Shown in pieces: positions 27,544-42,654 of a stretch of DNA of 64,000 nucleotides; within the stretch, counting starts at the first letter, position 1; each line of letters starts with the position of its first letter. A model generated the notes under the pieces. The model did not search any database. It saw only the letters and a program-made list of their open reading frames with translations, and had not been told where the DNA came from. Made by a program: the position numbers and the translations under genes. This stretch comes from Stigmatella aurantiaca (lineage in GTDB: Bacteria; Myxococcota; Myxococcia; Myxococcales; Myxococcaceae): assembly GCF_900109545.1 (NCBI RefSeq), contig NZ_FOAP01000001.1:186001-250000 (forward strand), written 5' to 3'.

Positions 27544-29181
27544 TCAGGCTGGGAGGGCCGTGGGGGGCGTCTTCACGGCTTGTTGGAGGAGCGCGGGCAC
27601 ATCGAGGATGAGGGCGACCCGGCCATCGCCCAGCAGGGTCGAGCCCGAGAGCCCAGGCAGTCCCTGACAGAACTTCCCCAGGGGTTTGATGACCGTCTGG
27701 CCCTGGCCGAGCAGCGTGTCCACGGCGAGGCCCGCGATACCCCGCCCATGGCCGATGACGACGAGGTTTTCCCGGGCCGGAGCGCTTCCCTCCAGGCCGA
27801 AGTGCTCACGCAAGCGGACGTACGGGAGTGCGGCTCCCCGCAGGTTGACGAAGCCGGTGCGGCCGGGATGGCTCTCCTCCACGGGCAGCTCCACGCACTC
27901 GAGCACGTTCTCCAGGGGGATGACGTACGTCTGGGCGCCCACGGCGACGCTGAAGCCTTCGATGATGGAGAGGGTGAGTGGCAGGCGGAGGCTGAAGGTG
28001 GTGCCCTGTCCTGGGGTGCTCTCCACGGAGACGGTGCCCCGCAGCATCTCCACGTTGCGCTTCACCACGTCCATGCCCACCCCGCGGCCGGACAGGTCGG
28101 TGACGCGCTCGGCGGTGGAGAAGCCCGGCTCCAGGATGAGCCGCAGGAGGGCTCCGTCGTCCGGCGTCTCCTCCGGCCCGAGCATCCCCAGGGTTCTGGC
28201 GCGCCGGGTGATGCGCTCGCGATCCAGGCCCGCCCCGTCGTCGGCCACCTGGATGACGATGGTGCCCGCCTCATGGAAGGCCCGGAGGGCCAGGGTGCCG
28301 GTGGGCTCCTTCCCACGCGCCTGGCGCACCTGGGGCGTCTCCAGTCCGTGGTCCATGGCGTTGCGAACCAGGTGGTTGAGCGGATCGCGGATGAGTTCGG
28401 CGACGGTGGTGTCCACCTCCACGTCCTCGCCGCTCACCTCCCAGCGGATCTGCTTCTCCAGGCGGAGGCTCAGGTCGCGCACCGTGCGTCCGAAGGGCTG
28501 GAAGGTGCGCCCAATGGGCACCATTCGCACCTTCATCACCAGCTCCTGCAGGTCCAGGTAGAGCCGGTCTCCCTCCCGATGGGCCTCCAGCAATTGTTGG
28601 GGCGTGTAGCGGTTCGCCTGCGCGAGCATGGTGGCCAGGCGTCCGCGCGCGATGGCGATCTCCCCGGTGAGGTCCAGCATCCGGTCCAACCGGTGCAGCT
28701 CCACCCGCAGGGTGTGCTCCCGGGGCGCAGCGGTTTCAGGAGAGGGTTTGGCGGGTTCCTGTGGCAGCGCCCGGCCAGTGAAGCTCGCGGGGCGGGCGGC
28801 CTTGACCAGGCTCGCCAGGAGTCCCTGCACTTCCACGGCAGGCAAGCCCAGGGAGGGGTCGCTCGCTCGCGTCAACCCCACCCGCTCCCGGAGCCCATCC
28901 ACTGCTTGCAAGAGCAGTGAGCCCAGCCCCTCGTACAGCATGATGGCCTGCGTCTCCAGCAGGGTGAGCAGGTCTTCCAGCGTGTGGGCCAGCTCCACCG
29001 CTTCGGTCAGCCCGAGCGAGGAGGCGGCTCCCTTGAAGGTATGGATCGTGCGGAAGACGGCCTGCAGGCGCTCCGGACCGAATGAGCGCTCGAGCGCCAG
29101 CAGCTCCTGATCCAGGGTGGCGAGCAGCTCCTCGGCTTCGGCGAGGAACACAGCGTGGACCTTCTCCAACTCGGGAGTCAT
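27544..29181 (-). CDS. cheA: CheA-type histidine kinase
   Basis: A 545-aa chemotaxis kinase. The Hpt domain has phospho-acceptor His47 (FRTIHTFKGAASSLG). There is a short linker with no obvious P2 domain, then dimerisation, HATPase (NHLVRNAMDHGLE, VADDGAGLD, GRGVGMDVVKRNVE) and a C-terminal CheW-like P5 (LPLTLSIIEGFSVAVGAQTYVIPLENVLE). ATG 29181 is preferred to TTG 29214 because Hpt starts there, although no ribosome site precedes it. The proposed sigma-54 promoter would start the transcript about 6 bases before this ATG. It heads the che operon behind the NtrC-type regulator, its likely partner. Confidence 0.94.
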   Translation of the reverse strand: MTPELEKVHAVFLAEAEELLATLDQELLALERSFGPERLQAVFRTIHTFKGAASSLGLTEAVELAHTLEDLLTLLETQAIMLYEGLGSLLLQAVDGLRERVGLTRASDPSLGLPAVEVQGLLASLVKAARPASFTGRALPQEPAKPSPETAAPREHTLRVELHRLDRMLDLTGEIAIARGRLATMLAQANRYTPQQLLEAHREGDRLYLDLQELVMKVRMVPIGRTFQPFGRTVRDLSLRLEKQIRWEVSGEDVEVDTTVAELIRDPLNHLVRNAMDHGLETPQVRQARGKEPTGTLALRAFHEAGTIVIQVADDGAGLDRERITRRARTLGMLGPEETPDDGALLRLILEPGFSTAERVTDLSGRGVGMDVVKRNVEMLRGTVSVESTPGQGTTFSLRLPLTLSIIEGFSVAVGAQTYVIPLENVLECVELPVEESHPGRTGFVNLRGAALPYVRLREHFGLEGSAPARENLVVIGHGRGIAGLAVDTLLGQGQTVIKPLGKFCQGLPGLSGSTLLGDGRVALILDVPALLQQAVKTPPTALPA

Positions 29182-29198
29182 GGGTCCGGGACGCAAGA

Positions 29199-29213
29199 GC
29201 AATCCGCACGCCA
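29199..29213 (-). promoter_or_regulatory. Sigma-54-type promoter upstream of cheA
   Basis: The minus strand reads TGGCGTG-CGGA-TTGC followed by T, close to TGGCACG-N4-TTGCW. GG and GC are separated by exactly ten bases. It sits in the 96-base gap between the NtrC-type activator gene and cheA. Confidence 0.5.
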
Positions 29214-29277
29214 AGGATAAATCTGTTCAGAAGTGCGCGGAACTCCTCGCCTTGTGAAACGGAGCCATGCTCGATGC

Positions 29278-30645
29278 TCAAACTTTTGAATCTGGATTCC
29301 AGACTTTGGACGAAAGGCCCAAGCTCTTCAGGCGCTGATAGAGCGAGCTGCGGGGAATCCCCAGCCGCTGGGCAGCCCGGCCGACATGGCCTCCCTCGGC
29401 TTCCAGCACGCGGGTGATGTGGCGGCGCTCCACTTCGCGCAGGGTGAGGTGCAGCTCGGGTGCGCTGGTGGTCTCCTCGGGGAGTTCGTTGAGCATCCGC
29501 GCGATGGCGGAGCCGTTGAACTGCAAGTCCTCCACGCGCAGGGTGGAACGGGAAGAGAGGAGCACGGAGCGCTCCAGCACGTTGCGCAGCTCGCGCAGGT
29601 TGCCGGGCCAGGGGTAGGCGCGCAGGGCGGCCTCCGCCTGCGGGGCCAGCTTGAGTCCTGGGCGTCCGAGTTCACGCGAGAGCTGGGCGAGTGAGGCGTG
29701 GGCGAGAGGAGGGATGTCCTCGGGGCGCTCCCGCAGGGCGGGAATGTGCAAGGGCAGGATGCTGATGCGGAAATACAGATCGCTGCGGAATTGCCGGGCC
29801 CTCACCCGCTCGACGAGATCCTGATGGGTGGCGGCGATGAGCCGGATGTCCACCGAGCGCTCCTCCACCTCTCCCAGGCGCCGGAAGCGCCGCTCCTCCA
29901 GCACCTTGAGGAGCTTGGGTTGAACGAGGGGATCCATGTCTCCCACTTCATCGAGGAACACGCTGCCCCGGTGGGCGCGCTCGAGCAGGCCCTGCTTGCT
30001 GCTAACGGCACTGGTGAACGCGCCTCGCTCGTGGCCGAAGAGTTCCGTCTCCAGGAACTGGGGGGACAGGCCCGCGCAGTTGAGCTGAATCAGAGGCTCA
30101 TGGGCCCGGGGCCCGTGGCGGTGCAGCCAGGATGCGAGCACGCCCTTGCCCGTCCCGGTCTCTCCCTGGATGAGGATGGAGCGGTCACTGTCGCGTACGC
30201 GCTGCGCGGTGGCTTCCAGCCGGCGGATGAGCGGACTGGTGCCCAGGAAGGGGTCGAGGTCCTCCGGTGGGTTCCGGGTTCTCCGTGCCTCGTGGACGCA
30301 CTCCATTGCCCGGGACAGCACGGACCACTCCACCGGTTTGGGGAGGAACTGCTCCGCCCCAAGCTTGACGAGCTGCACGGCCCTGTCGATGGCCGCGTTC
30401 TCGGCGAGGACGATCAGGGAGGTCAGGGGGGACATCTCGCGCAGCTCGGGAAGCAGCTTGTGCACGGAGAGACCTGGCAGACGGTCATCCAGCAGCACCA
30501 CTTCCAGCGGGGCACGGCGCAGGGACTCATGCACCTCCTGGGTGTTCCGGGCCTCGAGGATCTCCCAGCCGTGCGCCTCGAGCCACCGGCGAAGGGTTGC
30601 ACGGACCAACGGCTCCGCATCAGCGATCAAACACCTACTTCCCAT
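29278..30645 (-). CDS. NtrC-family sigma-54-dependent response regulator
   Basis: A 455-aa protein. The receiver domain (1-120) has putative phospho-site Asp53 ([10 protein letters not shown]) and Lys103 (LPKP). The AAA+ activator domain has Walker A GETGTGKG (161-168), sigma-54 contact loop GAFTSA (208-213, canonical GAFTGA with Gly to Ser), Walker [13 protein letters not shown] and the arginine-finger region. A C-terminal Fis-type helix-turn-helix covers about 405-445 ([24 protein letters not shown]). It lies directly upstream of cheA on the same strand. By analogy with Myxococcus CrdA/CheA3 it is probably the output of this chemosensory pathway, and may activate the sigma-54-like site before cheA. 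Confidence 0.94.
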
Positions 30646-31388
30646 GGCGTTTCACCGTCTTCCTCGTACCGGGTCCCCGGCGAAACGCACGGGCGGCCCC
30701 CCTTCGCGCCCGGGAAGCCACCCTGGCGCGATACAGCTAACAAAATATGAACACGCGACGTGTATCGAAGAGCATGTCACGCGGAACAGGGGGGGCGCGT
30801 CCCGTGGGGAAGCGGCGGCCCTGGCCGGCGTTTCACTCAGCGCCCGGGCTCTCCGCCGCCGGGAGACTTCGGGCTGGGCACTGCGCGAGCGCAAGGTCTT
30901 CCTGCTCGCCTTGTCCCCACAACGGCGTTGGCGTCCGCACGTGGCTCTGGATGGTGCTGCATGGGAGGCTCCCCCTGAGGGTCCGTCAGGTGCGCCCGGA
31001 GTCTACCGGATCGAATCCTGAAAACACCAGAAACAGAAGCTCTCGGGGGCCAGGACGGGATACCGGGCCGAGACAGCGAGACTCAGGCCCTTGATAACAC
31101 CCCATGGGAAATTCATATCAATTCGAAAGGCCGAGGGCGTGAAGACGATTCTTGAGCGGATGAGATGTCTATTCGAGGCATCCCATCATCGCCAGGGGGC
31201 CTTTGTTCTTGTAACGCAGGTCTTGCGGTTTGGGCTTCCATGCGGCGTTCGGACTGTCAAGCCCGGCCGGCAGCGCGGACCGTGTTGCCGGCGTGGGCCG
31301 TCACGAAAGATAGACATTCTTGCCAAAGAGAGAGGAGGCTTCGCGATTTCCCTTTCGAGCCCGTCCGCACCAGGGCCTCTTCGCCACA
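30646..31388. other. 740-bp stretch without a convincing gene
   Basis: No frame on either strand combines a ribosome site, codon bias and a recognisable product here. It holds the upstream region of the NtrC-type gene, an AT-rich patch with nested palindromes near 30729-30767, and a second AT-rich patch near 31105-31130. Compositional unevenness suggests decayed or acquired DNA. Confidence 0.5.
30729..30767. promoter_or_regulatory. Nested palindrome upstream of NtrC-type gene
   Basis: CGATACA (30729-30735) pairs with TGTATCG (30761-30767). Inside lies ACACG-CGA-CGTGT (30751-30763). The enclosed 25 bases are AT-rich (CTAACAAAATATGAAC). It lies about 85-120 bases upstream of the activator start, a plausible operator/promoter. 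Confidence 0.35.
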
Positions 31389-31634
31389 ATGGCCGTGCTC
31401 CTGCTCGCCGCTGCCGGTTGTGGAGGCAATGAGCCTCCTACCCTGGCCGAGCGCACGCAGCCGGCGGCCAGCGCGCGGCCCCTGGAGACCGTCACCTTCC
31501 GCGTTGCGGCGAAGGCCGAGAGTTCATCGCTTCGCTTCTCCTGGGAGGCCAGCACAGGCACCCTAGGGGACCCGAGCCATACCGCCACCACCAGCGAGGT
31601 TGTTTGGACCGCAGCCGGATCAGGAACCACCTGA
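31389..31634 (+). pseudogene. 5' stump of a lipoprotein gene
   Basis: Encodes MAVLLLAAAGCGGNEPPTLAERTQPAAS..., a lipoprotein signal plus the start of a beta-sandwich/Ig-like domain (TVTFRVAAKAESSSLRFSWEASTGTLGD, SEVVWTA). Third-position bias is strong up to about 31618 and then stops, and the frame ends at TGA 31634 in mid-domain. An upstream in-frame TTG at 31320 could add 23 residues. The C-terminal part of the gene appears to have been removed where it meets the opposing fragment. Confidence 0.55.
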
Positions 31635-31771
31635 CGGGAGACGGGGATGAACCCCAGGCTCCCCACGGACAGGAATGGGATGGCGAGGATCCACATCAGA
31701 ATTCGCCCCACGCGGAACCTGGCCACCGAGAGCAAGGCATTGCCGGCCTGGCCCGAACCCTCCTGGCTCAT
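31625..31771 (-). pseudogene. 5' stump of a membrane-protein gene
   Basis: From ATG 31771, with GGAGCGC upstream, about 48 codons show good coding bias and read [48 protein letters not shown], ending in one transmembrane helix. Bias is lost at about 31625, exactly where the opposing lipoprotein stump begins. The rest of the gene is missing. Family unknown. Confidence 0.45.
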
Positions 31772-32019
31772 GTGCTGCGCTCCATTCCCGCCCCGTGGGC
31801 TGGCTCCTGCCAGGCGGAGGGGTCCAGCCAGCGGGGGCGTTTCACTCTTCCCTGGAGAGAAGGCCCAGCGCCAGCGGCAGCCATGCTGGGAGGGACTGGG
31901 CGTTTTGCTTTTTACGCTTGGAATGCTCGTTTTCTGATAAGGGCCGTGGACAAGGCGTCAAGTCGGCCGTCTGTGGCGTGGACGAATGGCGCTGCGTGCC
32001 TGTCTCCCCCGGAGGGACC

Positions 32020-33447
32020 ATGTCCAAAGTGCTCCACAGTGTCGGTGCCGCCGTTGCGGCGCTCTTCGTGTCCGCGCCGTCGGTGGCCGCGGCGGCCATC
32101 TGTAACAAGTATTGCGATGGCCGTGACCCTGCGCTGTCGCCGAAGGACCGCCAGCCGGTCAGCGCTTCCATCCACTCGCGGAGCATCATTCTGCACTTCA
32201 ACGATGACGACGCGATGGCCTGGGCCTCCATCGAGAACGGCAATCCGGGAGACCAGGTGTGGCTCGACCGGTCCTTTGATGGGGGCCGCACCTGGGGATC
32301 CGGCAGCAAGCTGGGCGAGGCGGCGATTCCGGGTTCGTACCGGAGTTGGCGCACCCTGATGTACAACGTGGACGACTGGAGCACCCACGGCGTGGGGGCC
32401 CTTCGCGCCTGTGGCAAGGCCGGTGACCGGCCCGAGATTGCCTGTACGTCGTGGGCCCGCACCACGTGGAACGCCTGGGACCGGCGCACCGCCGCGGCGA
32501 CCGCGCTGATGCAGTTCTACGACAACAACACCGGGCTGTTCAGCACCACCGGCTGGTGGAACTCGGCCAACGCGCTGACCGCGATCATCGACAACATCCG
32601 CGTGTCCGGGATGCCGAGCTACCGCTACGCCATCGCCAACACCTATGACCGCAACCGCTCCGCACAGGGCGGGAACTTCACCAACGACTACATCGACGAC
32701 ACGGGGTGGTGGGGGTTGGCGTGGATCGCCGCGTACGACCTGACCGGCGAGACCCGGTACCTGGACACCGCCCGGGCGGACGCCGATTACATGGCGCGCT
32801 ACTGGGACAGCGTGTGCGGCGGCGGGGTCTGGTGGAGCACGGCCAAGCAGTACAAGAACGCGATCTCCAACAGCCTCTACCTGCAGCTCAACGCCGCGCT
32901 GCACAACCGCATCCCGGGGGACACCGTCTATCTGCAGCGGGCCCGCGCGACGTGGACGTGGTTCCAGGGGACCGGGATGATCAACTCCTCGAACCTGGTG
33001 AATGACGGCGTCAACCTGAGCACTTGCAAGAACAACGGGGATGTCGCCTGGACGTACAACCAGGGCGTCCTGGTCGCGGGGCTCGCGGAGCTGTACCGCG
33101 CCACCGGGGACAGCGCCCTGCTGACCCGGGCGCGCCAGCTCGCGGACGCGTCGACCACCCACCCGTCGCTCCACGTGAACGGAATCCTCCGGGAGCCGTG
33201 TGAGAGCGGCGACTGCGGAGGGGATGGCCCCTCGTTCAAGGGGGCGTACGTCCGGGGGTTGGGGGCGCTGAACGCGCTGCTGGCCGACCGGCCCTACACC
33301 GCTTACCTGCGCCGTCAGGCGGACTCCGCGTACACGAAGAATCGCAACACCCTGGACGCGTATGGCCTGCGTTGGGCCGGAGGCCTGGACCGTACGGACG
33401 CGGCCCGTCAGCACAGCGTGGTCGATTTGATGAACGCCGCGCCCTGA
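32020..33447 (+). CDS. Secreted GH76 alpha-1,6-mannanase-like enzyme
   Basis: A 475-aa exported glycoside hydrolase. The signal peptide is about 1-25 ([20 protein letters not shown]). A roughly 100-residue N-terminal part ([20 protein letters not shown]...) is of a kind familiar in actinobacterial GH76 proteins. The (alpha/alpha)6 catalytic domain has the adjacent acidic pair in [16 protein letters not shown] (near 226-227), then [19 protein letters not shown] and [17 protein letters not shown]76 enzymes are endo-alpha-1,6-mannanases acting on yeast and mycobacterial mannan backbones. GGAGGG precedes the ATG. Sitting next to gene stumps, it is a candidate for horizontal acquisition. Confidence 0.9.
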
Positions 33448-33489
33448 ACCGGGCTCTGGTATGGGAAGGACAGGCGCCCTGTGACCGGT

Positions 33490-34878
33490 TCACCGGCGCG
33501 GGAGCCTTCCGGCCGGTGGGGCTGCTCGCTCATCCGCCACCGTCACCCAACTGCCGTGGATGCCGAACGGGACGCGCTGGGGCAACCGGACTCGCGCGAC
33601 CGGGGCTGCGCCGAAGTTGCCAGCGTCAAGGACGACGAGTTCGCTGATGTCACGCTTGCTGTCGCAGACGAGGCTGAGCAGCCAGCCGCCGTCTTCGGGT
33701 GACTGGGCACTCTTGGGAACGAAGACGCACTCGCCGGGTATCTGCCCCGGTCCGAGTTCCTGCGCCAGCGAGGTGTCCGTCTCCGAGTCGTAGCGGCGCA
33801 AGCGTGCTCCCCCCGGGACTCCATCGGCGAAGTCGAGCATCTCGATGACGTACGTGTAGCGATGGGGCTGCCCGTTGCGGCGGCCGTCGATCCGGGGGAA
33901 TTCGACCGGGCGGCCGTCGAGCTGCCGCTCGCGGGTGTGGCCAGACTCAAGGTCGATCTCCCAGCGGTACAGGTACGGCGGAGCCGCTTCGAAGCGTGCC
34001 GAGCGGATCCCCTCCAGCACAAGCGTTCCCGCGCGTTCGAACGCGTTGGCGGTGTGGCCGAGCTGGCCGGGCTCGACGTCGAACCAGCGCACCTTGCCTC
34101 CCTGGCGCGGCACCACGCCGATGCGCGCTGGGTGGGAGTCGCTCCAATCGAACGGCATCCCCGCGCTCCAGTCACGGGTCATCCGGGCGGGCGAATCGAA
34201 GAAGACCGCGTACCGCTCCGTGATGGCGAAGTCGTGCATGTAGGAGGCACCCTCCACCTCGATCTCCCTCTTGGAAATCACCCGGCCCCCCGCGTCGGCG
34301 ATGTAGTAGGTCAAATACGGACGCACCACCTGGTAGCCGAAGAAGTGGAGTTCCCCCGTCAACGGGCACCGCTTGGGGTGCGCCGTCATCGGGGTATCCA
34401 CCGCCCCGCCGAAGTCGAAGGCGCCGACGGTCGACAGCTCCCGGTCCAGTTCCATGGGCAGCGCCGCCTCGACCATCGAGAGAATGCGGCCCCCATGTTC
34501 GGTCACGTGGGTGTTCGACGTGCCGCCCCCGCGAAGCCGCCTTGCCCGGACCGCGCCCGCATCCTCGCCGGGCGCTGTGGGGCCCAGGGCCGTTCCGGTG
34601 AACTTGGCGGTCCGGACGTAGCGGTTCCGGTACCAGCGCGCCTTTCCCCCGGTGAGGTGGATCCCATGCACCATCCCATCGCCGAACCACCAATGGGGGG
34701 AGACGCCGTCCTTCGGGTTCGGGCCGTTGCGCACATACGTCCCAGCGAGCCCTTGCGGCAGCTCTCCCTCCACGGGCAGCTCGTGCGCGGTCACCTCGTT
34801 GGCGACCGGGGCGAAATGGCCCTTCAGCCAGAACGGCTCGGAAGGAGAACGGGGATCGGCCTTGCTTTGGGGGGACAT
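33490..34878 (-). CDS. Carotenoid cleavage oxygenase (RPE65/CCD family)
   Basis: A 462-aa non-heme iron dioxygenase that cleaves carotenoids, apocarotenoids or stilbenoids. All four iron-ligand histidines are visible: TAHPKRCPLTGELHFFGY (near 164), YMHDFAITERYAVFF (near 213), GHTANAFERAG (near 273) and GIHGSW (near 438). YVRNGPNPKDG near the N-terminus is also typical. The start at 34878 has GGAGAGAAG upstream. It is divergent from a MarR-family gene, with two inverted operator-like repeats in the 97-base gap, so it is likely repressed by that regulator. The substrate is not predictable. Confidence 0.93.
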   Translation of the reverse strand: MSPQSKADPRSPSEPFWLKGHFAPVANEVTAHELPVEGELPQGLAGTYVRNGPNPKDGVSPHWWFGDGMVHGIHLTGGKARWYRNRYVRTAKFTGTALGPTAPGEDAGAVRARRLRGGGTSNTHVTEHGGRILSMVEAALPMELDRELSTVGAFDFGGAVDTPMTAHPKRCPLTGELHFFGYQVVRPYLTYYIADAGGRVISKREIEVEGASYMHDFAITERYAVFFDSPARMTRDWSAGMPFDWSDSHPARIGVVPRQGGKVRWFDVEPGQLGHTANAFERAGTLVLEGIRSARFEAAPPYLYRWEIDLESGHTRERQLDGRPVEFPRIDGRRNGQPHRYTYVIEMLDFADGVPGGARLRRYDSETDTSLAQELGPGQIPGECVFVPKSAQSPEDGGWLLSLVCDSKRDISELVVLDAGNFGAAPVARVRLPQRVPFGIHGSWVTVADERAAPPAGRLPRR

Positions 34879-34900
34879 GCGCTTCTCTCCTCGCAGTTAC

Positions 34901-34912
34901 TTGAGAACTCAA
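34901..34912. promoter_or_regulatory. Candidate MarR operator 1
   Basis: TTGAG-AA-CTCAA inverted repeat followed by ATAAC, 23 bases upstream of the carotenoid oxygenase ATG. Read on the minus strand it overlaps a possible -10 (GTTATT) lying 16 bases from TTGTGG. A mirror-image copy lies at 34949-34960. Confidence 0.6.
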
Positions 34913-34948
34913 ATAACATCGCCGCTGCGGCTTCCACAAGACGTTTAT

Positions 34949-34960
34949 TTGAGTCCTCAA
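34949..34960. promoter_or_regulatory. Candidate MarR operator 2
   Basis: TTGAG-TC-CTCAA inverted repeat preceded by GTTTAT, 16 bases upstream of the marR start codon. Together with the first site it forms an outer inverted arrangement, TTGAGnACTCAAATAA read toward the centre from both sides. The site centres are 48 bases apart. Confidence 0.6.
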
Positions 34961-34975
34961 CCAAAAGAAGAGCAC

Positions 34976-35404
34976 ATGTCCGCGCACCCCCTGAGCTTCT
35001 TTTTCGACCTGAACCGGGCCCACGCGATGGCGAGCCGCCGTTTCGACTCCGCCCTCGGCTCCGTGCACGGCATTGGACTGAACGACCTGCACCTTCTCCA
35101 GGTGCTCGATCAGGCGCCCGGGCATCGGCTGCGGCGAACGGATCTGGCCCAGCAGCTCGGATTGACGGCCTCGGGCGTGACCTGGATGCTGCGGCCGCTG
35201 ACGAAGCGCCGCCTTATCACCAGCCAGGCGAGCGAGGACGATGGCCGTGTCACATTCGCGGTGCTCACCAGCGCTGGGCACCAGCTGGTGGCGGACGCTG
35301 TCCCGACCGCACGGAGGATTGCGGCCGAGCTTCTAGACCCCCAGGTCAGCAAAGAGGCGCTGACGCAGGCTGCGTCGGTGGTCGCGCGGCTGGCTCATGA
35401 CTGA
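34976..35404 (+). CDS. MarR-family transcriptional regulator
   Basis: A 142-aa winged-helix regulator. The DNA-binding part spans about 45-105 (LHLLQVLDQAPGHRLRRTDLAQQLGLTASGVTWMLRPLTKRRLITSQASEDDGRVTFAVLT) and includes the wing with the DGR motif. Dimerisation helices lie at both ends. The ATG is chosen where the MarR fold begins; AAAAGAAGAG lies upstream. It is divergent from the carotenoid oxygenase, probably repressing both through the twin operators and responding to a small lipophilic ligand. Confidence 0.92.
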   Translation: MSAHPLSFFFDLNRAHAMASRRFDSALGSVHGIGLNDLHLLQVLDQAPGHRLRRTDLAQQLGLTASGVTWMLRPLTKRRLITSQASEDDGRVTFAVLTSAGHQLVADAVPTARRIAAELLDPQVSKEALTQAASVVARLAHD

Positions 35405-35487
35405 AGGGGCTGTGGGAGATGTGCAGGGACGGCATCTCCACTCCTGGGCCTGTTTCCCGTCAGAGGTATCTCCCCACGCACATCACA

Positions 35488-36109
35488 ATGTCCCCTCAGG
35501 ACTACGCCACCGCTTTCCACCTTCTGTCCGTGAACTCCCGGCACCCTGAGACCATCTATTAGGCCGTCCGGGAGCACGTCCTTCCCTGGTTGCCTGAGCA
35601 CCCGTCCCTGCTAGACGTCGGCGCGGGGCCAGGGAAGGTCGCCCAGCGGCTCGCGCCGCACTTCGCTTCGCTCACGCTGCTTGAGCCCAATCGGGAGCAG
35701 ATCTCCGGGCTGAGGCTTGAGGGGGCAGGGATACGGCTCTCCCGAACGGTATGATCTCGTCCTCTGCTCACACGTCCTGTACCATGTGCCCACCGCCGAG
35801 TGGGGTGGGTTCATCGACAGGCTGCTGGAGCGGGTACGTCCCGGCGGATACTGCGTGCTCATGCTCGGCGCGGCCCGAGGGCAGAACTACGCGCTGCACC
35901 GGGACTTCACCCAGACGATGATCTCCAGCGAGCAGCTCATCGCCATGCTGGAGCAGAAGCGGCTCCCGCACAGGGCCATCCCGGCCATGATCGTTTTCTC
36001 CGCAGCCTCCTTCGAGGAGATGTACACGCTCTGCCGGTTCCTCGTCCTCGAGAACTGTTTCACCGCAGAGCAGCTCGCGGGGACGAGGCGCGCGCGCTCG
36101 ATGATCTGA
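35488..36109 (+). pseudogene. Decayed class I SAM-dependent methyltransferase
   Basis: From ATG 35488 the frame reads MSPQDYATAFHLLSVNSRHP and hits TAG at 35560. The same frame continues with SAM motif I (LLDVGAGPGKVAQRLAP) and the acidic loop LLEPNREQI, then breaks near 35725. The downstream part resumes in another frame as ERYDLVLCSHVLYHVPTAEW, RVRPGGYCVLMLGAARGQNY and so on to 36109. Only about 15-20 residues separate LLEPNREQI from YDLVLCSHVLYHV where about 40 are usual, so an internal deletion accompanies the stop and frameshift. Inactive remnant. Confidence 0.8.
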
Positions 36110-36209
36110 TCCTCATCCCCAAGCCGTAACCCAGCTCAGGCCCGTCCCTGAGATGCCTGCGGACTGCTGGCTGGTTCCCAGGGGAGGGGCTGGGCGGCGC
36201 TCCGGGAAC

Positions 36210-38681
36210 TCATGTGCCTTCATGGCCGCCGGGCAACGAGGCTCCCTTCCCCTGCTCGCTTGAAGCGGCCTTGGGCCAGATGAAGCGGAAGGTCGCGCCA
36301 TTGCCGGGGGTGGACTCCACCCACACCCGGCCCCCTCGCGTCTCGACGATCTTCTTGACGACGGAGAGGCCGATGCCCGTGCCCTCGATCTTGTCCCGGC
36401 TCTCGAGCGTCTGGAAGATGCCCCAGATGCGCTCGTGATACTCGGGAGCAATCCCCGCGCCATTGTCGGCGATGGCGAACTCGTAGGCGTCTCCCACGTC
36501 CCTCCAGGTCAGCTGGATTCGCGGATCAGGCCGGCTGAGACTGGTGAACTTGATCGCATTGCTCAGGAGGTTCAGGAGCACCTGCTGCAGCTTCACGCGC
36601 TCGGCGATCAGCGTGGGCGCGCCTGGCTGTACCTCCAGCTGAACGTGCGGCGCTGGAGCGAGCAGCTCCACCACTTCCTTGATCAGCGCGACGGTGTCCA
36701 CGGCCACCGCCGCATCCCGCGTCTTCCCCGCACGCGAGTAGGCGAGGATCCCATCGATCAGCGCTTCCATGCGGTGCACGCGGCCATGCAGCAGCTTGAG
36801 GTACTCCCGTGCCTCGGGGGTCAGGCTGGCCGCCAGCTCCTCCTCGAGCCAGCCGGAGAGGTTGGCGATGCCGCGCAGCGGCGCCTTGAGGTCATGCGAG
36901 GCCACGTAGGCGAACTGATCCAGCTCGCGGTTCGACTGCTCCAGGGCCTGGGTGAGGCGTACCAGCTCCCGGGCCCGCTCCTCCGCCTGTTGCCGGGCGC
37001 GCACCACGTCGGTGACCTCGACCGCATGAGTCATCACCCCGAACGCATCACCGTTCTCGTCGATGAGCGGCTGGTAGACGAAGTTGAAATACGCCTCATC
37101 GACCCGCCCGAAGCGCTCGACCCGCACGGGGACCTCGTTGCCGATGTAGGGCTCCTTCGTGGCGAGCACCTGATCATAGAGCTCGAACAAGCCCTGGCCC
37201 GCCAGATCCGGGAAGGCCTCGGCGATGGTTTTGCCGACCAGTGGCCGGTTGCCCGATACCTCTGCGTAGCGGGGGTTGGCGACCTGGATGAGGTGCGCCG
37301 GTCCGCGGGCCACCATGATCGCCGCGGGCGCCTGCATGAACACCTGGGTCAGCCGGTTGCGCTCCAGGTGGAGCTGTTGCTCCAGGCGATACTGCTGGGT
37401 GATGTCCCGGATGGTGAGCACCACGCCGAGCAGAATGCCCCCTTCGTCATGCACCGGAATGGCGCTGCCCTGAACGCGCAGCTTGTGGCCCTCGGTGTCG
37501 TAGATGCTCCACTCCTCGTTGAGGACACGCTCGCCGCGGCCCGCCCGGATCGAGGGCAGCGCCTCGGGCGGAAACGGGGTGCCATCGAGCCGTTCCTGGT
37601 GGTGCTCCCGTGCGGCGAACAGCTCTCCTACCTGCAGCCCAGGGTAGAGGGCCCGGGCCATGGCGTTGAGGAAGGTGATGCGGCCCTTCGTGTCGAACGT
37701 CAGCACCGCTTCGGCGATGTGGCTCAGCATGGCGGCCCGCTCCGCTGCCAGCCCCTCCACGCGCCTCCGGGCCAGTACCTGCTCCGTCGTGTCCACCGCG
37801 TGCGCCATGATGCCGAACACGCTTCCGCCCGAGTCCTTGAGCGGCTGGTAGACGAAGTCGAGGTAGACGTCCTCCACCACCCCGTTGCCCTTGCGGTCCA
37901 GCTTCACCAGCGCATCGTGCGCCACGAAGGGCTTGCCGGTGCCGCGCACGTTGTCGAGGAGCTCCGGGAAGCCCTGGCCCACGACCTCGGGCAAGGCCTC
38001 CCGGACGGGCTTTCCGAGCAACGGCCGTTGTCCGGTCAGCTGCTGGTAGAGAGGATTGGACACGGTGAAGGTATGTTCGGGGCCCTCCAGGACGGCGATG
38101 ATCGCCGGAGCCTGCATGAACACCTCGTAGAGGCGCTCACGCTCCGCCCTCGCCTCGGCCAGGGCCCGATCGCGCTCCATGCGCGCCCGGACCTCCTGGG
38201 TCACATCAAAGACCGTGACGAAGACGCCGCCGACCGCGCCCGACTCGTCCCGGGTGGGGTGGTAACACAGCGTGAGGTAGTACTCCTCGGGGTACCCGCG
38301 CGGTGCCAGCGGGTACATCCGCTCCTCGAAGGAGACGGTCTCCCCCTGGAAGACGCGCGGGTAGATGGTCTCGTTGATGTGCCAGACCTCGGGCCAGCAC
38401 TCCCGGTTGCTCTGTCCCAGGCCCCCGGGGTGCTTGGCGCCCATCAGCAGCCGGTAGGCGTCATTGTAGAGCTGGAAGAGTTCCGGTCCCCAGAGGATGA
38501 CCATCGGAAACCTGGAGCCCAGCATGATGCTCACCGCGGTCTTGAGGCTCTGGGGCCAGCGCTCCACGGGGCCCAACGGATGCGCGCTCCAGTCCTTCAC
38601 GCGGCACAGCGCGCCCACCTCTCCCCCGTCTGGAAAAACCTCGGCCACGGAGCTTGCGGCGGCCTTCCCGGGCATGGCCAT
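36210..38681 (-). CDS. Multi-PAS sensor histidine kinase
   Basis: An 823-aa soluble kinase with about four PAS-type sensor domains (roughly 30-165, 185-310, 315-435, 445-575). The second and fourth are very similar to each other (VFMQAPAIIAVLEGPEHTFTVSNPLY and VFMQAPAAIMVARGPAHLIQVANPRY). HisKA has YVASHDLKAPLRGIANLS (His near 594) and HATPase has LLNLLSNAIKF, ADNGAGIAPEYHERIW and GTGIGLSVVKKIVE. This is the phytochrome-like kinase subgroup. It starts one base after the stop of the response regulator, so the two are coupled and probably cognate. The kinase core closely resembles that of the 39374 gene. Confidence 0.95.
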   Translation of the reverse strand: MAMPGKAAASSVAEVFPDGGEVGALCRVKDWSAHPLGPVERWPQSLKTAVSIMLGSRFPMVILWGPELFQLYNDAYRLLMGAKHPGGLGQSNRECWPEVWHINETIYPRVFQGETVSFEERMYPLAPRGYPEEYYLTLCYHPTRDESGAVGGVFVTVFDVTQEVRARMERDRALAEARAERERLYEVFMQAPAIIAVLEGPEHTFTVSNPLYQQLTGQRPLLGKPVREALPEVVGQGFPELLDNVRGTGKPFVAHDALVKLDRKGNGVVEDVYLDFVYQPLKDSGGSVFGIMAHAVDTTEQVLARRRVEGLAAERAAMLSHIAEAVLTFDTKGRITFLNAMARALYPGLQVGELFAAREHHQERLDGTPFPPEALPSIRAGRGERVLNEEWSIYDTEGHKLRVQGSAIPVHDEGGILLGVVLTIRDITQQYRLEQQLHLERNRLTQVFMQAPAAIMVARGPAHLIQVANPRYAEVSGNRPLVGKTIAEAFPDLAGQGLFELYDQVLATKEPYIGNEVPVRVERFGRVDEAYFNFVYQPLIDENGDAFGVMTHAVEVTDVVRARQQAEERARELVRLTQALEQSNRELDQFAYVASHDLKAPLRGIANLSGWLEEELAASLTPEAREYLKLLHGRVHRMEALIDGILAYSRAGKTRDAAVAVDTVALIKEVVELLAPAPHVQLEVQPGAPTLIAERVKLQQVLLNLLSNAIKFTSLSRPDPRIQLTWRDVGDAYEFAIADNGAGIAPEYHERIWGIFQTLESRDKIEGTGIGLSVVKKIVETRGGRVWVESTPGNGATFRFIWPKAASSEQGKGASLPGGHEGT

Positions 38682-38682
38682 C

Positions 38683-39102
38683 TCAGGGCATCTCCACCAG
38701 GGTCCAGTACTTGTTGAGCGTGGCCATCACCTCCACGAAGTTGACGAAGGTGACCGGCTTGAGCAGGTAGCCGGCGACGTTGAGGTTGTAGGCGTCAATC
38801 TTGTCGCGCTCGTTGGCCGAGGTGGTGAGCACCACCACCGAGATCGTCCGCAGCTCCGGATCCGCGCGCAGGGCACGCAGGAACTCGATGCCGTTCATCT
38901 TCGGCAGGTTGAGATCGAGCAGCACCAGCCGCCGCCCCTCGGGCACGGTTCCATTGCGCAGCTGCTCCAGCCCCTCGAGTCCGTTGCCGGCCACGTAGAG
39001 CGGATTGACGATGTGGTTCTTCTGGAAGGCGCGGCGCACGTTCATCACGTCCACCTCGTCGTCCTCGATCAAAAGGATATGTAAGGGCTCGTTGCTGGCC
39101 AT
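38683..39102 (-). CDS. Rcp1-like single-domain response regulator
   Basis: A 139-aa stand-alone receiver. Acidic pocket LLIEDDEVDVMNVRRAFQKN, phospho-Asp in RRLVLLDLNLPKMNGIEFL, Thr/Ser switch VVVLTTSANERDK and Lys in GYLLKPVTFVNFVEVM. The longer beta4-alpha4 region and C-terminus match the Rcp1 group that partners phytochrome-type kinases. No output domain is present, so it probably acts by protein contact or phosphorelay. It is first in a two-gene operon with the PAS kinase. Confidence 0.94.
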   Translation of the reverse strand: MASNEPLHILLIEDDEVDVMNVRRAFQKNHIVNPLYVAGNGLEGLEQLRNGTVPEGRRLVLLDLNLPKMNGIEFLRALRADPELRTISVVVLTTSANERDKIDAYNLNVAGYLLKPVTFVNFVEVMATLNKYWTLVEMP

Positions 39103-39373
39103 GGGTTCAGTCCTCGGCGTTCTTTTCGAGCACGGCAGACGCCAGGAGTCGAGTTTTGGACACCGGCTCGTCTGCTCGGATGCACTCAGACTGTAAGCCG
39201 CGTGGGACCCGGGACTTCGGAATACTTCTGGGCCGAGAGGGGATTGTGGAGGGTGTTCTCTACTCAACCCTGCTCCCGTACAGAGCCCTCGTCTCAAGGC
39301 TCTTGATGTACCTAGGACTTGAGGACATCTGGGTGGCGCCGGTGAGGCGCCGCGACCGTCGCGGCCCCGTTCC

Positions 39374-40126
39374 ATGGACGACTTACAGAAGACGAAGGAG
39401 GAGCTCCTCGCTGAAGTCCTTGTCCTCCGTAAAGCCCTGGAGAAGAGCCACGCCGACCTCGATCAGTTCGTCTATGTGGCCAGCCATGATCTCAAGGCGC
39501 CACTGCGAGGGATCTCCAATCTGTCCCAGTGGCTCGAGGAGGATCTGGGGCCCCAACTCGGCGCCGAGCCTCGCCGGCAGCTGGAGCTGCTGCGCGGACG
39601 CGTGCAGCGGATGGAGTCCATGATCGATGGCCTGCTCGACTACAGCCGCGCGGGCCGGGTGCGCCACAAGCCCGAGCGGGTCGAGGTCAGCCGGCTGGTG
39701 CACGAGGTGATGGAGCAGCTGCCCGCCTGGGCCTCCGCGCGGCTCGAGCTCGGCCCGGGGATGCCGGCCCTCACCACCGAGCGCATGGCGCTCCAGCAGG
39801 TGTTCCGGAACCTCTTGTCCAACGCCCTGAGGCACGCGCGCCGCGAGGAGCTGGTGGTGCGGGTCGAGGCAGGGGACGCACAGGACTTCCATCACTTCCG
39901 TGTGGCGGACAATGGCCCGGGCATCGCGCCTCAGTACCACGAGAAGATCTGGGGCCTGTTCCAGACGCTCGTCGCGCGCGACAAGGTGGAGGGCTCTGGC
40001 ATGGGCCTGTGCGTGGTGAAGCGGCTCGTCGAGAGCCGGGGCGGGCGGGTGTGGGTTGAGTCGGCCGAGGGGGCAGGCGCGACGTTCCACTTCACCTGGC
40101 CCAAGCCCCAGGAGAGGCTCACGTGA
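39374..40126 (+). CDS. Short histidine kinase without sensor domain
   Basis: A 250-aa soluble kinase core. A short coiled coil is followed by HisKA with His38 (FVYVASHDLKAPLRGISNLS) and HATPase (FRNLLSNALRHARREE, VADNGPGIAPQYHEKIWGLF, GSGMGLCVVKRLVE). The H-box and ATPase core are near copies of those in the PAS kinase at 36210-38681, implying duplication. Lacking a sensor, it may take its signal from the hybrid kinase whose GTG overlaps its stop (GTGA at 40123). It is divergent from the response regulator at 39102 across a 271-base gap. Confidence 0.93.
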   Translation: MDDLQKTKEELLAEVLVLRKALEKSHADLDQFVYVASHDLKAPLRGISNLSQWLEEDLGPQLGAEPRRQLELLRGRVQRMESMIDGLLDYSRAGRVRHKPERVEVSRLVHEVMEQLPAWASARLELGPGMPALTTERMALQQVFRNLLSNALRHARREELVVRVEAGDAQDFHHFRVADNGPGIAPQYHEKIWGLFQTLVARDKVEGSGMGLCVVKRLVESRGGRVWVESAEGAGATFHFTWPKPQERLT

Positions 40127-42654
40127 GCGACTCCTCAACCCCTGAGCTGGCCGCGGAGGCTCCCGAGAGGAGCGAGAGCCTCAAGCTCCTGCTCGTCGAT
40201 GACGACGAAGTCGACCGGCTCACGGTCCGGCGGTACCTGGCCACGAGTGGCATCACGGCGGAGCTCGTGGAGGCCACCAGCGGGCTTGAGGCGCTCGAGT
40301 GTCTGAAGGAGCAGTCGTTTGATGTCATCCTCTTGGACTTCCTGCTGCCAGGCGAGGATGGGTTCTGGGTCCTGCGCGAGATAGGAAAGAGGGGCACTCA
40401 CTCCCCCGTCATCGTACTCACCGGGCAGGGGGATGAGCAGACGGTCATCGAGCTGATGAAGGCGGGGGCCGCCGACTACCTCTCCAAGGTGAAGCTGTCC
40501 GCCGAGCGCCTGGAGCAGAGCCTGCGTCAAGCCATGCGGCTGCACCTGGCGGAGCAGCAGCACCGGGCGCTCGCAGAGGTCCTGCCGCAGATCATCTGGA
40601 CGGCCAGGCCAGACGGCCGCCCCGACTATTACAACCGGCGCTGGTATGAGTACTCCGGGTGGGGGCCGGCGCAATCCCTGGAAGCGGACTGGAGCGGCGT
40701 GCTCCATCCGGAGGATCTGCCTGGCTGCCTCGCCCAGTGGAACGCGAGCGTTCAGTCGGGAACCCCCTTCGAGGCCGAGAGCCGCCTGCGGCGCCACGTG
40801 GACGGTACCTACCGCTGGCACCTCATCCAGGCCCTGCCGCTGCGCAACGCGCACGGCCGCATCATCCAGTGGCTCGGCACGGGCACCGACATCGACGACC
40901 AGAAGCGCGCGGCGGAGACCCTAAGCTTCCTGGCCGAGGCGAGCACCATGCTCACCGCCTCCCTGGAGATGTCCGTCACGCTCGAGCGGCTCTCGGCCCT
41001 GCTCATTCCCCGGCTGGGAGATTGGTGTGCCGTCTACCTGCAGGAGGATGATGGACCCATCCGGCAGGCGCTGGTGGCCCACGCGGATGCCGCGAAGGTG
41101 CCCCTGCTGCGCGAGCTGCACCGCACCTTCCCCCCGGCGGTGGGCGCTGGCTGCGGCTATCCCCGGGTGCTGCGCACGGGGATAGCGGAGCTGGTGCCCG
41201 AGCTCACTGGGCAGATGATCCAGCAGGCGCTGGGCCCCGTGGAGCAGCTGGATTCCAGTGGGCAGCTGCGGCCCAGCTCATGGATCGTCGTGCCGCTGAG
41301 TGCCCAGCTGCGCGTCTTCGGAGCCCTGCAGGTGTGCCTCGCCGGGCCGGGCCGCCGCTACACCGCGCGAGACCTCGAGTTGGTGCAGGAGCTGGCACGC
41401 CGGGCCGAGATCGCCATCGATAATGCCCGGCTGTTCGAGATGGCCAAGGCCGAGCACCTGAGCGCCGAGCAAGCCAATCGCGCCAAGGACGAGTTCCTGG
41501 CCGCTGTCTCTCACGAGCTGCGCACCCCCTTGATGGCGATGCTGGGCTGGACGCGGATGCTGCGCACGGGGCAGCTGCCTCCGGAGAAGCACGCCCGGGC
41601 GCTGGAGGCGGTGGAGCGCAACACCCAGGTGCAGACCCAGCTCATCGAGGATCTCCTGGACGTCTCGCGCATCATCACGGGCAAGATGCGGCTGGAGGCC
41701 CGGTTGGTGAACCCTCGCGAGTTCATCGAGGCCGCGCTGGATGCGGTGCGCCACGCGGCCGATGCGAAGGGGGTGCTCTTGCACTCCGAGCTGGCTCCGG
41801 ACACCGGCTCCATCAGCGGCGACACGGACCGGTTGCAACAGATGGTCTGGAACCTGCTCTCCAACGCCATCAAGTTCACGCCCAAGGGTGGACAGGTCAC
41901 CGTGCGCCTGCAGCGGATGGACGCCAGCGTGCTCATCGAGGTGGAAGACAACGGCCAGGGCATCCCCAAGGGCTCGCTGTCCCATATCTTCGAGCGCTTC
42001 TGGCAGGTGGATGGGAGTTCTACCCGCAAGCATGGCGGGCTGGGGTTGGGGCTGGCCATCGTGCGGCACCTCACCGAGCTGCATGGCGGCACCATCGAGG
42101 CCTTCAGCCAGGGCGAGGGAAAGGGCGCGCTCTTCAGCCTGAAGCTGCCGCTGGCGACGGTGCCGGTGCTGCAAGGGACTCCGCCTCCGGTTCAGCCCCC
42201 GTCGCGCGTGGGAGCGCCGCAGCTTCTCGCTCCTGATCTGGAGGGGCTGCTGGTGCTGGTGGTGGACGATGAGCCCGATGCCCGGGAGCTCCTGACCGTG
42301 GTACTGGAGAACTGCAGGGCTCAGGTCATCACCGCGGCCAGCGCTTGGGAGGGACTGGAACGGCTGCAGCGGTCCCGTCCCCAGGTCGTCATCTCGGACA
42401 TTGGAATGCCCGGAGAGGATGGCTACTCCTTCATGCGCAGGCTGCGCGCGCTGCCGGTGGAGCGGGGGGGCCAGACTCCGGCCATCGCGCTCACGGCCTT
42501 CGCGCGGATGGAGGACCGCACCCGGGCACTGCTCGCGGGCTTCCAGATGCATGTGCCCAAGCCCGTCGAGCCCGCGGAGCTGGTGCTGGTGCTGGCCTCG
42601 CTCACTGGGCGTCAAGCCCAGGTGGCCAAGCGTCTGGGGGGTACCTTGGCATGA
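40123..42654 (+). CDS. Hybrid REC-PAS-GAF-histidine kinase-REC protein
   Basis: An 843-aa cytosolic hybrid kinase. N-terminal receiver with Asp72 (DVILLDFLLPGEDGF); PAS (about 145-275: LPQIIWTARPDGRPDYYNRRW, ending GTGTDIDDQKRAAE); GAF (about 290-445); HisKA with AAVSHELRTPLMAMLGW (His near 464); HATPase (WNLLSNAIKFTPKGG, GLGLAIVRHLTELHGG). The C-terminal receiver has its phospho-Asp near 758 (VVISDIGMPGEDGYSFM). Two receivers flanking one kinase suggest input gating by another kinase, plausibly the preceding gene. The GTG start overlaps that gene's stop. Confidence 0.94.
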   Translation: MSDSSTPELAAEAPERSESLKLLLVDDDEVDRLTVRRYLATSGITAELVEATSGLEALECLKEQSFDVILLDFLLPGEDGFWVLREIGKRGTHSPVIVLTGQGDEQTVIELMKAGAADYLSKVKLSAERLEQSLRQAMRLHLAEQQHRALAEVLPQIIWTARPDGRPDYYNRRWYEYSGWGPAQSLEADWSGVLHPEDLPGCLAQWNASVQSGTPFEAESRLRRHVDGTYRWHLIQALPLRNAHGRIIQWLGTGTDIDDQKRAAETLSFLAEASTMLTASLEMSVTLERLSALLIPRLGDWCAVYLQEDDGPIRQALVAHADAAKVPLLRELHRTFPPAVGAGCGYPRVLRTGIAELVPELTGQMIQQALGPVEQLDSSGQLRPSSWIVVPLSAQLRVFGALQVCLAGPGRRYTARDLELVQELARRAEIAIDNARLFEMAKAEHLSAEQANRAKDEFLAAVSHELRTPLMAMLGWTRMLRTGQLPPEKHARALEAVERNTQVQTQLIEDLLDVSRIITGKMRLEARLVNPREFIEAALDAVRHAADAKGVLLHSELAPDTGSISGDTDRLQQMVWNLLSNAIKFTPKGGQVTVRLQRMDASVLIEVEDNGQGIPKGSLSHIFERFWQVDGSSTRKHGGLGLGLAIVRHLTELHGGTIEAFSQGEGKGALFSLKLPLATVPVLQGTPPPVQPPSRVGAPQLLAPDLEGLLVLVVDDEPDARELLTVVLENCRAQVITAASAWEGLERLQRSRPQVVISDIGMPGEDGYSFMRRLRALPVERGGQTPAIALTAFARMEDRTRALLAGFQMHVPKPVEPAELVLVLASLTGRQAQVAKRLGGTLA

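Follow-up and report, generated by a model that had tools for sequence, protein, structure and literature searches.

Conserved twin palindromes are predicted operators of a MarR-family regulator divergent from a carotenoid oxygenase gene in Stigmatella aurantiaca

Introduction

MarR-family regulators typically bind palindromes of 16–20 bp that overlap the −10 or −35 element of a promoter (PMC7432914), and the family's usual arrangement is divergent and ligand-released, with palindromic operators (PMC5487221). The closest known design is that of SCO3205 from Streptomyces coelicolor, where two operators, O3204 and O3205, lie in a 119-nt gap between divergent genes, one upstream of each; O3204 has been footprinted, with the core TTGAACTCTCAA and a Kd of 1.3 nM (PMC3737563). 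In the ccoR–cco1 system of Mycobacterium kansasii, cco1 expression rises about 100-fold once the regulator is lost, and no pigment forms (PMC9861118). The MarR-like protein Saro_0803 of Novosphingobium aromaticivorans regulates nov1, the gene of a stilbene-cleaving oxygenase, and is released from its promoter by resveratrol (PMC10046596). CrtR, described in Corynebacterium glutamicum and through its orthologues, is a MarR repressor that binds the stretch separating its gene from a divergent one and is tied to carotenoids (PMC7432914).

Here we describe two palindromes that lie between a carotenoid oxygenase gene and a divergent MarR-family gene in Stigmatella aurantiaca and that, with the adjacent regulator, form a well-supported predicted regulator–operator pair.

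Results

The DNA analyzed, called the window throughout, is a 64-kb stretch of the S. aurantiaca genome. In it, a 97-bp gap (34879–34975) separates the oxygenase gene on the minus strand (33490–34878) from the MarR gene on the plus strand (34976–35404). The gap has a G+C content of 48%, versus 67.6% for the window, and carries two exact copies of TTGAG-N2-CTCAA, TTGAGAACTCAA at 34901–34912 and TTGAGTCCTCAA at 34949–34960, with no further exact copy in the rest of the 64 kb. The centers of the two copies are 48 bp apart; 22 nt lie between copy 1 and the oxygenase ATG (34878, minus strand) and 15 nt between copy 2 and the MarR ATG (34976), in agreement with the initial annotation, which had described the same 48-base spacing and one copy beside each of the divergent starts. 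We delimit predicted operator 1 as 34896–34917 (GTTAC-TTGAG-AA-CTCAA-ATAAC), adjoining the oxygenase start, and predicted operator 2 as 34944–34965 (TTTAT-TTGAG-TC-CTCAA-CCAAA), adjoining the MarR start. The spacer between their cores (34913–34948) presumably holds, from its position, elements of both divergent promoters.

The adjacent gene encodes a MarR-family winged-helix regulator of 142 aa, which scores above the cut-offs of Pfam PF01047 (32.2 bits; cut-off 24.6) and PF12802 (31.8 bits; cut-off 27). The structural matches of its model (pLDDT 86.7, pTM 0.73) are MarR-type proteins, including DNA complexes of SCO3205, SlyA, MepR, and PecS. The SCO3205–DNA complex 3zpl stands second among them (Z 16.8, rmsd 3.4, 142 residues aligned), tied with other MarR entries, and because matches within 1 Z unit count as tied, no MarR subfamily was chosen from them. 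Nine NCBIfam regulator models, including HpaR and Saro_0803, matched at E ≤ 0.01, and none of the nine reached its cut-off, the best being HpaR with 31.2 bits against 121.2. A feature typical of MarR loci, a conserved palindrome of ~16–22 bp beside the regulator's own start, is present here at the level of conserved sequence.

A dinucleotide model of the window predicts 0.027 exact copies per 64 kb and about 4 for the whole 9.37-Mb genome, in which three places carry the motif. With one mismatch allowed, the window holds 2 sites against 1.00 expected, a count that was reached in 22 of 100 shuffles and is not significant. Thus, the genomic total is not unusual, and the presence of two copies in one 97-bp gap is. 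We considered the third genomic copy as a further target and rejected it: it straddles the junction between a spacer and a repeat in a CRISPR-like array that has 17 repeats with ~72-nt spacing (L003:850–2150; G000:C3, about 217,000) and appears to have arisen there by chance. In each of the five other genomes (12–13 Mb) that carry the same oxygenase–MarR cassette (see below), the exact motif occurs at two places, both at the cassette. A control pattern, the motif read backwards, occurs 1–3 times in these five genomes, versus 2 for the motif, and 1–3 times in all seven relatives' genomes, which are these five and the two metagenome-assembled genomes (MAGs) G100 and G101; in the window's own genome, the counts are 3 for the motif versus 0 for the control. 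Because control totals are similar to motif totals, totals say little, and it is the places that are informative. G100 has one exact place with a one-mismatch partner beside it. G101 has a third exact place (L084), which was rejected as a target and taken as chance, no oxygenase or MarR gene being recognized by eye in its frames. The decisive evidence for the predicted operators is accordingly their conservation in relatives, not counts in the window.

Among 96 family genomes, the window's own included, 71 have some MarR match at E ≤ 0.001. Close relatives of the regulator are nevertheless rare: apart from the window's own gene, these genomes hold only one, in G033 (92% identical), and none of the other matches listed exceeds 45% identity or has an E-value below 2.1e-9. 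A profile search of the phylum, which scored up to 20 first-look candidates per genome in the results considered, gave matches at E ≤ 1e-20 in 2 of 195 genomes, again counting the window's own. A scan of genome contigs, which starts from short peptide patterns and so misses distant relatives, gave seven loci: four in Polyangium (74–81% identical), one each in a Kofleriaceae MAG and a Myxococcales MAG (67% each), and one in a Caulobacter MAG (31%; L040). The last has no site near its MarR match and was left out of the group.

Five loci, that of G033 (L005) and the four of Polyangium (L034–L037), are oxygenase–MarR cassettes whose divergent oxygenase is 73–83% identical to that of the window (BLAST). 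Both palindromes are kept in all five, 47–48 bp apart. Across the six cassettes, the window's included, 20 of 20 arm positions are invariant, as against 0 of 4 central positions and 27 of 73 other intergenic positions (arms versus the other 77 positions, Fisher p = 3.6e-8, a statistic that ignores kinship); these counts rest on six loci, four of them from the single genus Polyangium.

The two MAG loci L038 and L039, with MarR genes 67% identical to the window's, still carry two sites each, 21 and 20 bp apart and directly before the MarR gene, one of the L038 sites having one mismatch. No oxygenase match lies within 4 kb upstream and 1.2 kb downstream of the MarR gene in L038, or in L039, where 249 bases upstream were examined to the contig end; the oxygenase start lies ~100 bases before the MarR start in the cassettes, and a neighbor in the same layout should thus begin within those 249 bases. 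Thus, it is the regulator that the motif follows. Loci of other genes served as negative controls. The exact motif is absent from 28 loci of other MarR genes and 28 loci of other oxygenase genes (each a subset of a longer list of matches), and the one-mismatch form occurs once in the same loci, in L010, far from the gene. A looser scan for TTGA-N4-TCAA beside the 28 other MarR matches, in which the upstream side was not distinguished locus by locus, found nothing, and a MarR profile at E ≤ 1 found no frame in 11 of the 28 other-oxygenase loci. On plasmids, four loci with more distant MarR genes (L099–L102; 4 of 14 matching records) lack the exact motif; in L101, from Streptomyces, a one-mismatch site begins 22 nt before the annotated MarR start, and in L100 such a site lies far from the MarR gene. 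Four plasmid loci with more distant oxygenases (of 92 matching records) have no annotated MarR neighbor. The sequence of the sites, their conservation, their link to the regulator gene, and their rarity elsewhere in the genomes are direct observations.

As a separate observation, the MarR proteins of two of these plasmid loci, both from Deinococcus (L099:2981–3905 and L100:2963–3905), are 44–47% identical to the window's regulator; each of their genes overlaps the end of another that encodes a small ATP-binding protein, an arrangement like that of a two-gene operon, and imperfect TTGA/TCAA palindromes are seen by eye upstream.

Alignment of 16 sites from eight loci extends the symmetry past the core, to TTRN-TTGAG-NN-CTCAA-NYAA. 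Of the 32 half-sites, 31 have T as the third base out from the core and 24 have T as the fourth; the full predicted site is about 20–22 bp. The initial annotation had noted ATAA on the side of each copy that faces the center of the gap. It is present after each copy; the symmetric flanks in relatives indicate, however, that it is one end of a longer palindrome rather than an extra element. ATAA is then part of the predicted operator, possibly overlapping the −10 regions. In the window, such an overlap is a guess, since no consensus σ70 promoter is found in the gap (best pair 7/12). L038 has a strong promoter (TTGACA, 16 bp, TATATT; 11/12); one operator lies within its spacer, and the other comes directly after its −10 element. 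In L039, TATAGT and the second operator have one base in common. The operators of the window may, by analogy, extend over the −10/start regions of two divergent promoters. The spacing between operators is ~4.5–4.6 helical turns in the cassettes and ~2 in the two MAG loci; at ~4.5–4.6 turns, contact between dimers across the cassette gap would be unexpected on straight DNA.

The presumed target is a carotenoid oxygenase of the RPE65 family with 462 aa, of which residues 22–446 match Pfam PF03055 (399.2 bits). Its best NCBIfam model is 8′-apo-carotenoid 13,14-cleaving dioxygenase (NF052295; 371.5 bits, below the cut-off of 675), and neither lignostilbene model reaches its cut-off (NF053778, 200.1 against 800; NF053780, 180.3 against 650). 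The iron site of RPE65-type carotenoid oxygenases consists of four conserved histidines. The segments TAHPK, MHDFAIT, GHTANAF, and GIHGSW align with chain 9luz_A, from a solved carotenoid 9,10-dioxygenase, with each histidine matched, and the four histidines are invariant in the six cassettes, consistent with a predicted metal site. (This alignment, the histidine comparison, and the plasmid and MAG-genome searches used a 461-aa query without the initiator methionine; the Pfam and NCBIfam comparisons and the E ≤ 1e-30 genome search took the whole frame.) The structure model of the oxygenase, with a mean pLDDT of 59.2, was too poor for use. This oxygenase is the only one of its family found in the genome at E ≤ 1e-30, and the lignostilbene model likewise gives one match at E ≤ 0.001. 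The genome also has three CrtI-family matches over the cut-off; all 14 control genomes gave matches in this search, 4 over the cut-off, and only matches over the cut-off are therefore counted. The best-scoring apocarotenoid model, the histidine segments, the three CrtI matches, and the lone oxygenase together make carotenoid breakdown plausible.

The DNA shared by the window and G033 is confined to 33513–35404 and stops with the MarR stop codon; their flanks differ. Flanks are common to the four Polyangium loci, which share only the two-gene stretch with the window (28001–42000 compared) and G033. Searches of the six remaining genomes from this genus gave neither an oxygenase match at E ≤ 1e-30 nor a close MarR relative. 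The shared stretch fits movement of the cassette, and a G+C content of 67.5% against 67.6% gives no sign of recent import; alternatively, the cassette may have been lost from the other genomes of the genus rather than transferred.

Just downstream of the MarR gene lies what looks like a decayed methyltransferase gene (35488–36109), with an early in-frame stop by eye and a C-terminal fragment (35717–36109) that matches Pfam Methyltransf_23 (27.9 bits; cut-off 27). Three sensor-kinase-like genes follow close together at 36210–42654: one on the minus strand (36210–38681) with PAS and kinase domains by Pfam, and two on the plus strand (39374–40126 and 40123–42654) recognized by eye from their translations.

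Discussion

The palindromes are, with a probability of roughly 0.88, operators of the adjacent MarR protein, acting as an autoregulating repressor that would block both divergent promoters. Conservation in relatives, the MarR fold, and precedent strongly support the autoregulated switch proposed in the initial annotation, with one predicted operator per divergent start. From the observations above we infer binding, repression rather than activation, the promoter positions, and release by a ligand. One MarR dimer would occupy each site of 20–22 bp, TTRN-TTGAG-NN-CTCAA-NYAA, site 1 serving the oxygenase promoter and site 2 that of the regulator itself, each over the −10/start region, so that bound MarR would exclude RNA polymerase in both directions. 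Once a small ligand occupied the MarR dimer, both sites would be freed together, and oxygenase and regulator would rise.

What the ligand might be is a question compatible with any account of the sites. The inducer could be the oxygenase's own substrate or product, a carotenoid, apocarotenoid, or stilbene, as with resveratrol, which releases Saro_0803 from the nov1 promoter; the nov1 oxygenase belongs to the same superfamily as carotenoid oxygenases. The three CrtI-family matches, the absence of a second carotenoid oxygenase among those found in the genome, and the higher score with the apocarotenoid cleaver model than with the lignostilbene models point the same way. Against this, G101 keeps the regulator and its sites without an oxygenase homologue at E ≤ 1e-20, and G100 has only a 31% homologue, both being MAGs and possibly incomplete, and the regulator may thus answer another signal. 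We regard an inducer of this kind as a tentative possibility, with the balance somewhat against it. The initial annotation's suggestion of a carotenoid, apocarotenoid, or aromatic inducer found no support, as the regulator occurs in two MAGs, which may be incomplete, without an adjoining oxygenase in the DNA examined, and in one of them without any homologue at that threshold. A bolder version would have this regulator represent a previously unnamed MarR subfamily that serves as a dedicated apocarotenoid sensor, its regulon being its own two promoters, within a self-contained, horizontally moved 1.9-kb cassette for carotenoid breakdown (oxygenase, twin operators, and MarR). This is speculative, and we think it unlikely to hold in full.

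Some MarR proteins activate transcription, and the sites could be MarR operators from which the regulator activates the oxygenase, or of which one activates and the other autorepresses. The gap's lack of a consensus promoter, often seen at activator-dependent promoters, would suit such an arrangement. But both sites lie near start codons, and in L038 the operators sit within and just after a core promoter, a repressing position; activation is therefore distinctly improbable here. More improbable still, a different DNA-binding protein might use the palindromes, the neighboring MarR gene being incidental. Binding by MarR is a prediction, which leaves room for another binder, but the motif accompanies this MarR gene even where no adjoining oxygenase is seen, and no exact copy turned up at the 28 loci of other MarR genes or the 28 of other oxygenases. 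That the palindromes are chance or structural (terminator- or recombination-like) repeats is scarcely credible: short inverted repeats are common, the genome total of the exact motif is near expectation, and two overlapping terminator-like sites on the minus strand at 34968–34991 (shuffle mean 0.4) lie beside, although not on, operator 2, but six loci share invariant arms, drifting centers, and a spacing constant within 1 bp. Repression by the adjacent MarR protein from both palindromes thus remains the preferred reading, and it can be set against the systems already described.

A search for literal forms of the motif returned no paper about such an operator, as judged by titles and the opening parts of abstracts, and among the matches listed for MarR with carotenoid cleavage, myxobacterial carotenoids, and carotenoid oxygenase, in a literature whose subscription journals are mostly outside coverage, nothing concerned this regulator. 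The gene ccoR resembles the window's regulator gene in being divergent from a carotenoid cleavage oxygenase gene; its product, unlike MarR, is a TetR/AcrR regulator, and the system demonstrates that carotenoid cleavage can be gated by a divergently encoded repressor. Saro_0803 acts at an inverted repeat, GCAATA-N6-TATTGC, that overlaps a predicted −10 element and is unlike the window's motif, and the window's regulator scores only 25.3 bits with the Saro_0803 NCBIfam model (cut-off 200). CrtR differs in controlling carotenoid synthesis, in sensing geranylgeranyl pyrophosphate, and in its 19-bp site with a central TTAA. SCO3205 comes nearest: it too is a MarR protein, each of the two divergent genes has a site of its own, the gene opposite the regulator carries an annotation of dioxygenase homology, and a single base distinguishes the O3204 core, TTGAACTCTCAA, from TTGAG-N2-CTCAA. 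Its dioxygenase, however, is a class III extradiol enzyme, O3204 and O3205 are less alike than the window's two sites, and the two regulators share only distant sequence similarity (3zpl, E = 1e-6 by profile).

The general design is thus already known and usual for the MarR family. To it, the present locus would add a predicted, conservation-backed operator for a group of MarR proteins that scores below the cut-offs of all nine NCBIfam models listed for it, and a carotenoid oxygenase tied to a local switch. If the ligand were an apocarotenoid, the pair could be used directly as a biosensor component, in the manner of Saro_0803 or CrtR.
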